NCBI GenBank assembly: GCA_016793585.1
Contig: JAEUJR010001066.1
Coordinates: 1-7,633, forward strand
Length of the DNA: 7,633 bases
Source: Archangium sp.
GTDB taxonomy: Bacteria > Myxococcota > Myxococcia > Myxococcales > Myxococcaceae
Direction of reading: 5' to 3'
The notes beneath the pieces are model-generated. The model saw nothing but the letters and a program-made list of their open reading frames with translations. It had not been told where the DNA came from and did no database searches. Position numbers and translations under genes: made by a program. Within the stretch, counting starts at the first letter, position 1. Each line of letters begins with the position of its first letter. Positions 1,433-6,241 of the stretch are shown here, piece after piece.

Positions 1433-3760
1433 TCACTCGAAGGGAATCACCGCGTCGCGCCGCAGGTAGAACGTTCGCGTCGCGCCCTGCTGCGTCGCCT
1501 TGCTCAGCCGAACCCACGGCGGCCCGGGCGGCGTCGTCGCGCAGCCAGCCTCGACCACCGCGTACTGCGCGTGCTGCTGCACGGCGTCGTCGTTGCCCGC
1601 GCGCCGCGGCGGCGGAAACGTCAGCTTGAAGCGGCCGCCGTCGACGGGCACCGAGAGGTCGCTCAGCCGGTACAGGCCCGTGCCGTAGCTGCCGCCGCAG
1701 CCCTGGTACCAGACGCCGTCACCGCGCTCGAGGGTGGGCGGTGGCCCCAGCTCGGCGTGGTGCCACAGCCCGGCGACCCGGTCGTTCACCGTGTGCTCGG
1801 CCACCAGGGCGCGAAAGAGCAGCTCTCCGGCCACGCTGTCAGGCGGCCCGTCTTCCTCGATGAAGCCGACGTGCGAGGCGCCCATCTGCACGAGCTTCTC
1901 GTGCACGGCCTTCACGGTGCCCAGGCGCGCGTATGAGAGGCCGTATTGAATGCCCGGCTCGTCCGTCATCGCCACGTGGTGGATGCCGAGGGTGGGGTAG
2001 CGGTTGTGGTACAGCACGCGCGCCTTCGGCGGCAGCTGGTCGCCCATGCCCTCCCAGTCTGAGAACGGCTGGAGACGCGCGGTCGGCGTCGCGGACGTGA
2101 GGCCCTGGCTGAAGTGCTCGACGGTGCTCGCCATCGCCGAGGTGCCGCCGTTCATGCCATGCGTCTTCAAGAAGGGCACGCCAGCCGCGACCACGAGCTG
2201 AAACACGACAGCCGCAGCGACGCCCATACGGGCAGGCCAGCCCAGCTGCCAGGCGTGCGCGAACACGACGTACGCGACGGCCGCCATCACCGGCACCAGC
2301 ACCACGAGGTACCGCATCTGATGCGCGAAGTTCCACCACAGGCCGATGCCGCCGTGCACCACCAACACGAGCACCCAGACCCACGGCAGCCGTCGCAACA
2401 GCGGCAGCACCACCAGCGAGACCGAGAAGAGCGAGCCAAAGACGGGCAAGCGCTTCGTGAACGACTCCCAGGTGGCGAGGTCCAGGTGGTAGCGCCACAG
2501 CGCCTCGAGCGTGCCCGTCACGCGCGCGCTGAACGAGGCCGGTTGGGCAGCCCACGCCTCGAGGCTGAAGCGCGCGGCCCAGGCGCCGCTGTCCTGCGTC
2601 CACGGGGTCGACGGCCAGAGCTCGCCAGCGAAGGGGTAGAGCGGGTTGTGGTACCAGATGAGGTTTCGCAGCCAGAGCGGTGTGGTCACCAGCAGGCCCG
2701 TCGCGAGCGCGACCAGCATGGGCGGCCACACCTGGCGCACCGAGCGCCTCACGCACGCGACGACGATGCCGCCCGTCACGCCCACCAGCATGGGCACGAC
2801 GAAGAAGGCCGCCGTGTACTTCGTCAGCACGACGCCACCGACCTGCGCCGCCACCAGCGCCCAGCTCGCCGCATCGCCGCGGCGAAAGGCGTGCACCCAC
2901 GCGAGCACCGAGCTGGCCACCCACCACGCGGCCACGTGGTCAGCGCCGCCCATGAGGCCCGTGTCGTAGACGTAGAGCGAGGGGAACAGCAGCACCATCA
3001 CCCACGCCCAGCGGGAGCCCACGCGCGTGAGCGACGGGGAGAGGACGCGCACGAGCGCAGGCATCGTCGCGAGCGTTCCAAGAAACGCTACCACCTCGAG
3101 CTGCTGCGCGAGCGCCACGCGGTCGAAGAGGGTGCCCGGCCGAAGGAAGGCCCAGGTCGCGAACAGGCTCGCCAGATGCGGAGACGTGAGCACCAGCGCG
3201 CCCTCGGGGCTGGGTTCGATGCCCCCCGCCGCGACGTACCGCTCGGCGATGCCCAGGTGGTACCAGCGCGCGTCGTAGTTCAGGTTCGTCGGCGACAACG
3301 TCGGCAGCACCGCGACGCCGAGCGCCACCAGCCCGAGGAGCAGCACGAGCCACTCCCAGGCCGCCAGCACGGGCCGGGCGCGCCAGAGGCGGTCGAGCTC
3401 CTCCACGAGCTGCTGGTGCCCGCTCAGCAAGAGCAGCGCGGGGTAGAGCCAGAACGTCGTGGGCCCGAAGAGGTGCAGGTGGCCCACCAGCGCGAGCCCC
3501 AACCCGAAGGCGAGCCCGCCCGTCGCGAACGAGAGCGCGAGGTGCCCATCACGCCGCGGCCCGGGCACGAACGAGAGCAGCTTGAGGCCGACGCTGAACG
3601 ACGCAGCCGCAAAGACGAGCGCGCCCACCCACGCCGTCATCACGCGCGGCAGCAGCCACCGCTCGAAGGGGAAAATCTCGGTGAAGAACGGCACCAGCTG
3701 CAGCACCGCCCCCACCAGGGCGGCGAGGGCCACCCACGCGCGCCAGCCAGGGGACTTCAC
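1433..3760 (-). CDS. polytopic GT-C-fold glycosyltransferase-like membrane protein
   Basis: 775 residues from the GTG at 3760, chosen because it overlaps the upstream gene's TGA as GTGA; an in-frame upstream ATG would bury 45 residues in that gene. About a dozen hydrophobic segments fill residues 8 to 535. After the segment at about 136-153 comes N161-Y-D163-A-R-W-Y-H168, in the place where GT-C enzymes (PMT/ArnT-like, GT39/GT83 clan) carry the acidic catalytic loop, so D163 is the candidate catalytic or metal-contacting residue. Further family-like motifs are GGADH (271-275), TKYTA (313-317) and RNLIWYHNPLYPF (365-377). The last 230 or so residues are soluble and probably extracytoplasmic. 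Such enzymes transfer sugars from polyprenyl phosphate donors on the outer face of the inner membrane; donor and acceptor cannot be read here. The gene is coupled to the discoidin-domain gene. It could instead be a non-catalytic homologue. Confidence 0.75.
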   Translation of the reverse strand: MKSPGWRAWVALAALVGAVLQLVPFFTEIFPFERWLLPRVMTAWVGALVFAAASFSVGLKLLSFVPGPRRDGHLALSFATGGLAFGLGLALVGHLHLFGPTTFWLYPALLLLSGHQQLVEELDRLWRARPVLAAWEWLVLLLGLVALGVAVLPTLSPTNLNYDARWYHLGIAERYVAAGGIEPSPEGALVLTSPHLASLFATWAFLRPGTLFDRVALAQQLEVVAFLGTLATMPALVRVLSPSLTRVGSRWAWVMVLLFPSLYVYDTGLMGGADHVAAWWVASSVLAWVHAFRRGDAASWALVAAQVGGVVLTKYTAAFFVVPMLVGVTGGIVVACVRRSVRQVWPPMLVALATGLLVTTPLWLRNLIWYHNPLYPFAGELWPSTPWTQDSGAWAARFSLEAWAAQPASFSARVTGTLEALWRYHLDLATWESFTKRLPVFGSLFSVSLVVLPLLRRLPWVWVLVLVVHGGIGLWWNFAHQMRYLVVLVPVMAAVAYVVFAHAWQLGWPARMGVAAAVVFQLVVAAGVPFLKTHGMNGGTSAMASTVEHFSQGLTSATPTARLQPFSDWEGMGDQLPPKARVLYHNRYPTLGIHHVAMTDEPGIQYGLSYARLGTVKAVHEKLVQMGASHVGFIEEDGPPDSVAGELLFRALVAEHTVNDRVAGLWHHAELGPPPTLERGDGVWYQGCGGSYGTGLYRLSDLSVPVDGGRFKLTFPPPRRAGNDDAVQQHAQYAVVEAGCATTPPGPPWVRLSKATQQGATRTFYLRRDAVIPFE

Positions 3761-4647
3761 GGGTGCACTTCGACGCGCTCGAGGTGGAGCGTCGTCGTCC
3801 GGTCGGTGCGCAGGCGCACGTAGCGGGCGGTCGTGGTGGTGAATCGCGGCTCCCACGTGCTGAAGGCGGCCGGCTGCCGCGCCACCTCTCGCCACGTGAG
3901 GCCGTCGTCACCGACCTCGACGACGAGGGGCACGGCCCGCTCCTGCAGCTCGTCGAGGCGGTTCACGACGGTGAGCCCCGAGACCGCCTGGGCCTCGCCG
4001 AGGTCGTACTGAATCCACGGGTTGGCCTCGGGCGCGGTGATGAAGAAGATGTCGGTGCGAACGCCGGCGCACTCGTGATGGCTCGGGTGGCAGGTGTACG
4101 GGCTGCTCGAGGTCTTCCACTCGGCGTGACGCGCGAGGTTCCGCGGAGCCCGCAGCCAGGTCAGCACGCCAGGGCCGAGGGCGGCCACCAGCACCAGCCC
4201 CACCACGACGCGCAGCGACCGTACCCAGGGCAGCTGCCGCGCGCTCGCCATCAACCGCGCCGGTCGCTCCACCACGTCGAGCAGCTCGGCGTGCAGCCTG
4301 CGCAGCGTCGCGACGTCGGTCGACTGCTGCTCCACCAGCGCGGCAGCGTCGGTGACGAAGCGGGGCGCGCCTGGCGGCAACGTCGCCAGCACCGAGGCGG
4401 TCGAGTAGCTGGCGGGAACGTCGGCGTAGGCCGCGAGCGCGAGCGCCAGCCCCTGCTGGTGAAGCGTCGCGCGGGCCAGCTCACGGCCGGCCGTGAACGA
4501 GAGCTGTTCGGCCGCATCGAAGGTCTCTCGTGAGCGAGAGGTGAGCTCGGCCTGACGGGCGCTCTGCTTCGAGCTCGCTGCGGCTGCAGCCTCTCGTTCG
4601 GCGCGGGCGGTGAACCAGGTGAGCACGGTCGCTGTGTAGCGGACCAT
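3757..4647 (-). CDS. single-pass membrane protein with extracytoplasmic discoidin (F5/8 type C) domain
   Basis: 296 residues. Residues 1-140 are Ala- and Arg-rich, helical and without a signal peptide, so probably cytoplasmic. A single membrane helix follows at about 146-164 (VVVGLVLVAALGPGVLTWL). Residues 172-296 form a discoidin-like galactose-binding fold. The diagnostic parts are NPWIQYDLGEAQAVSGLTV (from 209), VEVGDDGLTWREVA and the closing ARYVRLRTD strand. C186 and C193, near the start of this domain, could form a disulfide, as expected outside the cytoplasm. Discoidin domains usually bind carbohydrate or lipid headgroups. The ATG has GGAG 8 bases upstream (4659-4656), and that GGAG lies inside an inverted repeat. 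The stop overlaps the glycosyltransferase-like gene (GTGA), so the two products are probably made together. A role in binding or positioning the glycan substrate is inferred. Confidence 0.75.
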   Translation of the reverse strand: MVRYTATVLTWFTARAEREAAAAASSKQSARQAELTSRSRETFDAAEQLSFTAGRELARATLHQQGLALALAAYADVPASYSTASVLATLPPGAPRFVTDAAALVEQQSTDVATLRRLHAELLDVVERPARLMASARQLPWVRSLRVVVGLVLVAALGPGVLTWLRAPRNLARHAEWKTSSSPYTCHPSHHECAGVRTDIFFITAPEANPWIQYDLGEAQAVSGLTVVNRLDELQERAVPLVVEVGDDGLTWREVARQPAAFSTWEPRFTTTTARYVRLRTDRTTTLHLERVEVHP

Positions 4648-4758: not shown

Positions 4759-5181
4759 TCAGCGGAAGCCGACGTTGAACTCGACGCGCGAGCTGCGGCC
4801 GTAGCGGCGGTGCTCTTCACGGCGCTCGTGACGGCCGTAGTCGGAGCGGTCGTACGCCACCCAGACCCAGTTCTGCTGCGACTCGTAGTGGCCGGCGGTC
4901 TGCGTGGTGACGTACCGGCCAGGCTCGCAGAACTGACGGCCGCGGTGGCCGACGCGGCACTGCCCGGCCACGTAGACCTGCTGCGTGAAGCCGGGCACGT
5001 AACGCTGCGTGGTGCGCAGCTCCCAGCGGCCCGAGTTGTTCACCGGCGCGGGCTGGGGGCCGCACGGCTGCTGAACCACCGCTGGCATCGGGGCCGGCTG
5101 CACGGCGACGGCGCCGTGGTACTGGGCGAAGGCGGCAGGAGCGGCGAGCACGGCGAGAAGGGTGAGGATTCGAGCGTTCAT
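4759..5181 (-). CDS. secreted protein of unknown function with WVxxY-type beta repeats
   Basis: 140 residues. The ATG at 5181 is chosen because it opens a clean signal peptide: N2-A-R4, a hydrophobic core (residues 5-18) and cleavage after A17-F-A19 before Q20. The frame is open further upstream, but those codons run into the copper-protein gene in another frame. The mature protein has a Pro/Gln-rich linker (27-47), then strand-like segments WELRTTQRYVPG, QQVYVAG, GRYVTTQTAGHYE and WVWVAY. These repeat a pattern of Tyr/Trp-Val followed by Gly. There are three cysteines (C40, C75, C85). The tail (112-132) is Arg/His/Glu-rich and ends in VEFNVGFR. I do not recognise a named family. It lies 64 bases downstream of the copper storage gene on the same strand and may share its transcript. 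The His, Cys and acidic tail could bind metal, but this is speculation. Confidence 0.75.
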   Translation of the reverse strand: MNARILTLLAVLAAPAAFAQYHGAVAVQPAPMPAVVQQPCGPQPAPVNNSGRWELRTTQRYVPGFTQQVYVAGQCRVGHRGRQFCEPGRYVTTQTAGHYESQQNWVWVAYDRSDYGRHERREEHRRYGRSSRVEFNVGFR

Positions 5182-5245
5182 GGCCCCTTCGACCGTGAAC
5201 CCGTCACTCCTATTCACCCACCCTGCCTGCGCCCTCAACCGCTCG

Positions 5246-5719
5246 TCAGGCGGCCGCTTTTTCGCACTCGGCCGCACACTTCTGACAGCTCTCCATGCAC
5301 GCCTTGCACTCGGCGTGGTGGTTCTGGTGCTTCTTGCAAGCCGCTTCACAGTCGCGGCACACCTTCGCGCAGACCGCCGCGAGGGCCTTGAGGTGGGCCG
5401 AGTTGAGGCGCGTGAGGTCGGCCACGGCGTGGCACATCGGCAGCATCGCGCGCACCGTGCCCGCGCACTCGGCCATCGACTTGTCGCCCGTCGAGAGCGT
5501 GCGCACGCAGTGGTCGAGGCACGCTTCGCCCGCCTTGATGCAGTCGAGCGCGGCGGCCAGCAGCGCGTCGTTGATGACCCACGCGGCCTTCGCTTCGGGC
5601 TTGGCATCTTTCGCCGCGGGCGGAGGCGTCGTGCCCTTGCCCTGGGCCAGGGCCGTCAGGCTCAGCACCGCTGCACCACCGGCTGCCATCGTCACCGCAT
5701 CACGTCGCGTCATCGTCAT
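5246..5719 (-). CDS. csp1: exported four-helix-bundle copper storage protein (Csp1-like)
   Basis: 157 residues with 14 cysteines, all after residue 59: C60, C67, C71, C85, C96, C117, C121, C124, C128, C138, C141, C145, C148 and C152. They recur at 3-4 residue spacing within four predicted helices, for example CxxCxxxCxxCxxxC at 138-152. This is the pattern of the Csp family (PF03860), in which thiols lining the core of a four-helix bundle hold many Cu(I) ions per monomer. The N terminus is Tat-type: T4-R-R6-D, a mild hydrophobic core (8-24) and ALA before Q26. This matches exported Csp1 rather than cytosolic Csp3. A Pro/Lys/Ala linker (27-46) precedes the bundle. The first ATG is preferred because GGAG (5730-5727) lies 7 bases before it; the alternative Met3 would leave 13. 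It stands between a MerC-like gene and a secreted-protein gene on the same strand, with an inverted repeat upstream. Copper is the expected metal from the family; selectivity cannot be read directly. Confidence 0.9.
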   Translation of the reverse strand: MTMTRRDAVTMAAGGAAVLSLTALAQGKGTTPPPAAKDAKPEAKAAWVINDALLAAALDCIKAGEACLDHCVRTLSTGDKSMAECAGTVRAMLPMCHAVADLTRLNSAHLKALAAVCAKVCRDCEAACKKHQNHHAECKACMESCQKCAAECEKAAA

Positions 5720-5776
5720 GGAAGGTCTCCGTCGTGGGGAAAGAAAGCGCTGCGAGGCGCGACATACGCCCGCGCG

Positions 5777-5802
5777 CGTTCGTCGTCTTTCGAGAACGAA
5801 CG
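5777..5802 (-). repeat. 26-bp interrupted palindrome between merC-like and csp genes
   Basis: CGTTCGT (5777-5783) and ACGAACG (5796-5802) are perfect inverted repeats around 12 bases; two more symmetric base pairs extend inside the spacer. It starts 4 bases beyond the MerC-like stop and lies about 58 bases ahead of the copper storage start. It could be an attenuating or terminating hairpin after the MerC gene, or an operator for csp. No T tract follows, and it matches no metalloregulator site I know. Confidence 0.45.
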
Positions 5803-5806
5803 TGGC

Positions 5807-6184
5807 TCAGGCCGCGCGCAGCAACGAGCGGTTGCGCAGGTGCGCCGCCATCATCGCAGCCGCGCCACCGAGGCTGAGCACCGTCTCGGCGACGCTCTCG
5901 TCGAAGGCGAAGGCGGCGGTGGCGAGCAGGGCGATTCCACCGAGGGCAAGCCCGACGACCCCGACGTCGCGGTGCGACCGAAAGCCCGGCGCGAACGAGG
6001 TGACCGCGACGGCGAGCACGGCGACCAGCAGCACCGGGTGAAAGCCGCCGAGCACCGAGGCCGCCGCAGGCGCGACCGCCAGCAGGCCCGGCGTCGACAC
6101 GCAGTGCACCATGCAGAGGCCCGAGAGCGCCGTCCCCACGAGGTCTGACGAACGCGGCGCGGCGACGGGCGAGGGCGACTGCAT
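5807..6184 (-). CDS. MerC-domain inner-membrane protein (soft-metal transport type)
   Basis: 125 residues from the ATG at 6184. Four hydrophobic helices are visible, roughly 15-33, 40-62, 73-95 and 99-115. The first carries G22-L-C24-M-V-H27-C28 followed by S-T-P32. This CxxHC-x-x-x-P signature in helix 1 marks MerC-domain proteins (PF03203), whose founding member moves Hg(II) across the inner membrane. The end, AHLRNRSLLRAA, also fits the wider MerC-domain group. The frame stays open far upstream, but that sequence lies over the divergent gene and lacks membrane character, so the Met just before the first helix is preferred. No Shine-Dalgarno is seen, and a -35/-10 pair ends 7 bases before the ATG, consistent with leaderless initiation. 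No merA, merT, merP or merR is present, so mercury resistance should not be assumed. Being upstream of an exported copper storage gene, Cu(I) is a plausible alternative substrate. Confidence 0.82.
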   Translation of the reverse strand: MQSPSPVAAPRSSDLVGTALSGLCMVHCVSTPGLLAVAPAAASVLGGFHPVLLVAVLAVAVTSFAPGFRSHRDVGVVGLALGGIALLATAAFAFDESVAETVLSLGGAAAMMAAHLRNRSLLRAA

Positions 6185-6191
6185 GCCGGGC

Positions 6192-6220
6192 GCAATAGCC
6201 AGTCGGCGCTCTTTTCGCAA
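6192..6220 (-). promoter_or_regulatory. candidate leaderless promoter for the MerC-like gene
   Basis: On the minus strand TTGCGA (6220-6215) is followed by 17 bases and TATTGC (6197-6192), 7 bases before the ATG at 6184. The -35 matches consensus at 4 of 6 positions, the -10 only at 3 (TAT). The geometry is the same as for the EcsC-like gene at 841, which is the main support. The boxes are weak, so confidence is low. Confidence 0.3.
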
Positions 6221-6225
6221 GTCAG

Positions 6226-6241
6226 TGGCAACTGCGACGCT
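6226..6241 (+). promoter_or_regulatory. candidate sigma-54 (-24/-12) promoter for the TIGR02996-type gene
   Basis: TGGCAACTGCGACGCT has the invariant GG (6227-6228) and GC (6239-6240) at the 12-base offset required of sigma-54 promoters, with a full TGGCA at the -24 side; the -12 side has AC instead of TT before GC. Predicted transcription start is near 6252, 17 bases before the GTG. It lies in the 84-base divergent region shared with the MerC-like gene. No enhancer site is obvious nearby. Confidence 0.3.

Follow-up and report, generated by a model that had tools for sequence, protein, structure and literature searches.

A MerC-family gene that is, on balance, probably controlled by zinc starvation lies directly beside the gene of a copper store in the DNA described here. 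The genes, the conserved adjacency of merC and csp1, an operator upstream of merC and the link of this operator to zinc-free ribosomal paralogues were all found by computation on the window (the whole stretch of DNA analysed, 7,633 nucleotides) and on related genomes. Judged from its upstream sequence, merC is here most likely a zinc-starvation gene of the Zur type. The features that bear on this reading are as follows.

6184-5807, minus strand: merC-like gene, 125 aa, PF03203 (ORF list, Pfam)
5719-5246, minus strand: csp1, 157 aa, TIGR04401 (ORF list, NCBIfam)
5181-4759, minus strand: third gene, 140 aa, secreted, no known family; signal peptide read by eye, two invariant Cys (C75, C85)
6215-6231, minus strand: Zur-type operator, TTGCCACTGACTTGCGA; consensus TTGCAACNNNGTTGCAA, from which 3 of 14 positions differ
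6192-6220, minus strand: predicted merC promoter, read by eye from aligned upstream regions
5758-5769, minus strand: recurring element GCGTATGTCGCG upstream of csp, suggestive only
5207-5218, minus strand: element GGTGAATAGGAG upstream of the third gene, similar in several relatives

The MerC-like protein, Csp1 and their adjacency

The three minus-strand genes in a row that had been claimed for this place are present as open reading frames, with intergenic gaps of 87 nt between merC and csp1 and 64 nt between csp1 and the third gene. The first product scores above the cut-off for PF03203 (E 2.3e-19; 70.4 bits, cut-off 27.6), has about four hydrophobic stretches by hydropathy, and contains the expected CxxHC motif as CMVHC at residues 24-28. 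Six residues (C24, H27, C28, H49, H71 and H115) are invariant in 31 aligned rows, the window included; they fit a metal path across about four helices, and MerC would then be a transporter. MerC mercury importers, such as the Tn21-type MerC, are alike in Pfam family, size, number of hydrophobic stretches (about four) and the presence of Cys in the first stretch, but the window protein differs from them, as they are generally described, by the CxxHC motif and further invariant His, by a zinc-type operator and by the lack of mer genes in the window.

When genome contigs were scanned with the MerC alignment, 80 of 110 loci were retained, of which the 13 best are from Myxococcota, and PF03203 is found above its cut-off in 58 of the 147 genomes in the class of the nearest genome. 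On a MerC tree of 35 rows (the frame-broken L012 left out, and L088 in place of the cut L013), the window groups with L001, L004, L011 and L002.

The second product was announced as a 14-Cys Csp1-like protein, and it is indeed an ordinary Csp1 by sequence: all 14 Cys were counted, the match to TIGR04401, the Csp1 family, has 139.6 bits (cut-off 100), and PDB Csp1 5fjd is matched with E 2.5e-16. The scan of the window gave no Pfam-A match for it; PF03860 is a precomputed label of Csp homologues. Among the 120 homologues listed of 181 matches, each of the 14 Cys is kept in at least 119 (C60 in 119 of 119), and the twin Arg at residues 5-6 is kept in 111 of 111 and 110 of 111 aligned homologues with a residue there. 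Tat export is read from this twin Arg and its conservation in homologues, and the product is predicted to be a Tat-exported four-helix-bundle Cu(I) storage protein. A Tat-type twin Arg, a score above the cut-off and a Cys-rich core are shared with the Csp1 family at large (TIGR04401; Methylosinus Csp1, Neisseria Csp). Two features differ: the adjoining merC, and a conserved His loop at 131-135 near the Cys cluster (H131 in 120, H134 in 108 and H135 in 119 of the 120 listed homologues), which has no His in the aligned part of Methylosinus Csp1. Csp1 is found above the cut-off in 15 of the 147 class genomes; on plasmids, relatives occur in three records, none covering 80% of the query.

Upstream DNA can be read at 13 myxobacterial Csp1 loci, and at 8 of these the gene immediately before csp1, in the same orientation, is merC. 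Seven of these are in G001, G003, G004, G008, G009, G011 and G013; the eighth is in G136, otherwise syntenic with the window, where the last merC codons were read by eye before csp1 at the contig end. The csp1 gene stands without adjacent merC in G010, G012, G022, G094 and G100, while G002 and G135, cut by contig ends, are outside the count. The adjacency thus recurs beyond chance, and the envelope metal locus with conserved order proposed in the original prediction is borne out; the search of Myxococcota genomes, which had been named as a refuting check, places the adjacency in other genomes too. Seen from the other gene, MerC has no Csp1 neighbour in 50 of the 58 class genomes that carry it. 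Across a phylum set of 195 genomes, MerC is above the cut-off in 15 of 20 genomes with Csp1 versus 53 of 175 others (Fisher p 2e-4, ignoring kinship). On the MerC tree the Csp-linked label falls in two sub-clades and needs only four changes, so that inheritance explains much of the pattern. Behind merC in one locus (L007:8520-8645) there is a short csp-like stretch (E 2e-4) that resembles a decayed csp gene. Among the open-access matches listed, no literature that links MerC to Csp or places it under Zur was recognised.

The operator of merC and its zinc signature

The gap upstream of merC is 84 nt long and contains the operator, which has the palindromic form TTGCAAC-N3-GTTGCAA. A weight matrix was built on 53 sites among the matches listed elsewhere in the class, with the G097 merC site excluded; run on the whole 7,633-base window, it gives 13.7 at 6215-6231, and the next best score is 0.5. 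In first-order simulated windows, 7 of 300 reach 13.7 anywhere in 7.6 kb. The predicted promoter consists of a −35 box TTGCGA (6220-6215) inside the operator, a 17-nt spacer and a −10 box TATTGC (6197-6192). The ATG of merC follows 7 nt after the −10 box, and the mRNA may therefore be leaderless. A generic sigma-70 scan found no promoter in the window, that of merC included; a terminator scan gave one plus-strand match, with 0.7 expected.

Myxobacterial merC upstream regions have in common an imperfect palindrome near TTGCAAC-NNN-GTTGCAA. When one mismatch is allowed, 64 of the 147 class genomes contain it, and 11 of the 147 contain the reversed control. Its contexts were read at 30 fetched sites and in 20 more regions. 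The same lipoprotein-like gene lies beside the box at 14 of the 30 sites, with a TonB-receptor gene next where the neighbour was seen. The box also precedes genes for CbiM and a NicO-like protein, a ZIP-like gene that is 456 nt away and matches below the cut-off, and one member of the Fur family, for which Zur is the best NCBIfam match, again below the cut-off; an imelysin gene was seen at a further site. In G055 there are eight copies that deviate at no more than one position, and for the majority no target gene is evident; most of these, like many other sites without a clear target, may be due to chance.

Ribosomal protein genes were compared after these contexts had been read. The 26 S18 loci in 22 genomes comprise four that are Cys-free and 22 that contain Cys. 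A box scoring at least 10 is present at three of the four Cys-free loci (27.1, 17.4 and 10.1; the fourth has 1.8) and at none of the 22 Cys-containing loci (best 3.9). One of the boxed Cys-free loci is in G012, which shares the pair of csp and third gene with the window; there, the box (10.1; L318:5806-6828) has the S18 gene on one side and, on the other, a lipoprotein-like gene similar by eye to those linked to the box elsewhere. In G080 (L317:12862-14430), S14, L28 and Cys-free S18 paralogues occur with several copies of the palindrome, and this group is likely a zinc-starvation ribosome set. In G060 the box precedes an L28 gene, followed by an S18 paralogue. According to excerpts of PMC6103462, zinc-free ribosomal paralogues are classic Zur targets. 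Because it precedes Cys-free S18, S14 and L28 paralogues as well as TonB receptors, the box is taken as a Zur-regulon signature. The likeness to Zur regulons, as given in those excerpts, lies in a palindromic operator common to zinc-free ribosomal paralogues, TonB receptors and one Fur-family gene; the excerpts include no MerC-family member, and the Caulobacter Zur operator differs in sequence from the box described here (PMC4176598, in part). In 405 kb of fetched myxobacterial DNA there are 11 sites of at least 13, seven upstream of merC (one counted twice) and four in S18-paralogue loci; the 74 loci scanned overlap in part, and many had been chosen for MerC, Csp, S18 or the pattern.

The neighbours of other MerC genes are also zinc-linked. 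Six large-genome MerC loci (L151-L156) were opened, and five of them have a gene for an ABC-3 permease close to merC and on the opposite strand. In each of these five genomes (G116, G117, G060, G091 and G088), the sole ZnuA found is 3-6 kb from merC, so that MerC is near znuABC in all five. At 20 loci, 19 of them titled Sphingomonas or Sphingomonadaceae, the gene next to merC belongs to a single cluster, assigned to the Fur family by family models on one member (L021), for which Zur is the best NCBIfam match, below the cut-off.

The generality of the box at merC was gauged on two sets of loci. In the first, of 26 upstream regions (the window, L001-L013 and 12 chosen loci, L151-L162), 19 score above 0 and 13 at least 10; in the second, of 29 loci from the PF03203 class scan (L111-L139, ten loci being common to both sets), the counts are 12 and 6. 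Overall, 15 of 45 distinct merC loci reach at least 10. Of 1573 equally long background stretches, taken from loci of Fur, ZnuA and Cys-S18, one does so and 35 score above 0; the box is therefore strongly tied to merC. The motif first came to notice in MerC upstream regions, so its form cannot be taken as independent of the merC sites. A pattern shaped on those sites matched 15 times, in 10 of the 16 genomes, and four of these matches are at merC. Since this pattern is no commoner than its reversed control, which matched 22 times, it reveals no wider regulon of this exact form.

Boxed merC genes are found mainly in nearer relatives, and most large-genome merC loci are without a box, as is L011, a close relative with the order merC, csp, third gene. 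None of 37 Fur-family loci has a box of at least 10 (best 7.9); Fur-family matches number 2-4 in each of 12 genomes, none assigned to Zur. The znuA gene is a usual Zur target; at 14 ZnuA loci there is no box upstream within 1.5 kb, the one match (10.2) being inside coding sequence. Nor is there a box of at least 10 in the 6-8 kb surrounding csp genes without merC, and co-regulation of csp would thus depend on read-through from merC. Upstream of several myxobacterial csp genes, with and without merC, there is an element like GCGTATGTCGCG, a possible promoter of csp itself.

Proposed mechanism and alternative readings

We infer that the repressor is Zur, that MerC transports metal, and that merC and csp1 are co-expressed and act together. 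A Zur-type repressor bound at 6215-6231, overlapping the −35 box, would keep merC silent as long as zinc suffices; a fall in zinc would release transcription of merC from a start at or near its own ATG. The MerC protein, which is small, lies in the inner membrane and belongs to the CxxHC subgroup of PF03203, would most likely pass zinc through the membrane, or control its passage, by way of the invariant Cys and His residues. Transcription of csp1 would come from read-through over the 87 nt between the two genes, from an element belonging to csp1, or from both. Cu(I) binds thiols and histidines more tightly than zinc, and a likely sense of the pairing would be metal sorting in the envelope, with Csp1 keeping Cu(I) off the zinc route when zinc is scarce. 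As a complete module, in which a Zur-controlled MerC zinc permease is made together with a Tat-exported Csp1 that mops up periplasmic Cu(I), this is a tentative and rather doubtful proposal; if true, the copper store would be part of the zinc-starvation response. Proteins of PF03203 carry the label 'mercury resistance', which zinc-type control of this MerC subgroup would correct. Such control would also give these myxobacteria a defined Zur-type box and make the protein a candidate for a minimal zinc permease, and with the Csp1 neighbour, copper buffering during zinc starvation becomes directly testable.

The neighbours may instead be functionally unlinked, with a zinc-related merC, a copper-related csp1 under its own promoter and an order kept by kinship. 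This is a serious possibility, if a less than even one, and as regards merC it overlaps with the reading preferred here. It would account for the element upstream of csp that recurs at csp genes without merC, for the missing Zur box at csp, for the five genomes in which csp stands without merC, and for the mere four changes of the linkage label on the MerC tree; it sits less well with the same strand and order, and gaps from below 100 to about 340 nt, kept in two MerC sub-clades, or with the csp-like stretch that persists behind merC in L007. Less probable, and on the whole unlikely, is the copper-handling pair of the original prediction, in which Cu(I) would pass between cytoplasm and periplasm by way of MerC and be stored outside by Csp1. 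The adjacency seen in 8 of the 13 Csp1 genomes that could be judged and the invariant Cys and His of MerC agree with such a pair, and so do fusions of MerC to copper-binding bufferins in other bacteria, which the authors, in excerpts of PMC12452194, relate to mercury or other metals. What the fusions share with the present locus is the combination of a MerC domain with an exported, periplasmic metal-binding domain, but according to the same excerpts bufferins are modified peptides linked by fusion, whereas here MerC and Csp1 are encoded by neighbouring genes. Copper transport by MerC is not favoured because of the Zur-type box on the merC promoter, the zinc-linked neighbours of other MerC genes and the 50 of 58 class genomes in which MerC has no Csp1 neighbour.

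Two further readings assign other metals to the locus. In the first, the Csp1 of this lineage would be a store of zinc, or of both metals, on which MerC draws for import. This is improbable: H131, H134 and H135 are conserved in a loop that lacks His in the aligned Methylosinus Csp1, but the Cu(I)-lined bundle retains its full set of 14 Cys, and characterised relatives bind Cu(I) according to excerpts of PMC7558416 and PMC12510493. An origin as a mercury-uptake remnant of a mer operon, suggested by the naming of PF03203 after MerC, is very improbable indeed. The original prediction had noted that the window has no mer reductase or regulator, and no other mer family was found by Pfam among the nine window ORFs scanned; tblastn up to E 10 gave no match in 72,556 plasmid records, and a mercury operon was rejected on these two counts. 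The relatives of MerC are on chromosomes and MAG contigs and group by lineage. Among the neighbour clusters listed for them, from a search that was not mer-specific and covered 79 of 94 selected loci (no merC gene being called in the other 15), no mer gene was recognised.

The third gene and further neighbours

The third protein has nothing near the cut-off in Pfam or NCBIfam. Five of six relatives tried match no family, and the sixth gives a weak EAGR-box hint below the cut-off; an EAGR box for the third protein itself, far below the cut-off, was discarded. Its His/Arg/Glu tail, pointed out in the original prediction, is present in the window protein, but it is not conserved: in a 23-row alignment it varies in length and content and is missing from two rows (P0053 and P0056), and it was therefore dropped as a metal site. 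Close homologues of the gene (E < 1e-40) occur in 5 of the 147 class genomes, in all five behind csp1, and are broken in two (G004 and G012); weaker relatives exist in 78 other class genomes.

Beyond the third gene, at 1433-4647 of the window, are genes for a PMT_2-like membrane protein (just below the Pfam cut-off) and an F5/8 type C protein, and G136 has genes of matching length, on the same strand and in the same order. Other genes recur next to merC elsewhere. In 29 loci, many titled Novosphingobium, merC is followed, instead of by the Fur-family gene, by a member of a protein cluster that includes ThiS (L015). At eight myxobacterial loci (L003:4050-7895 and seven others), a large DUF3857/TPR protein, so assigned from one member tested with Pfam, is encoded directly upstream of merC on the same strand. 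In G080 (L151:4444-6354), merC is followed by the gene of an ArsP-type permease with a His/Cys-rich tail.
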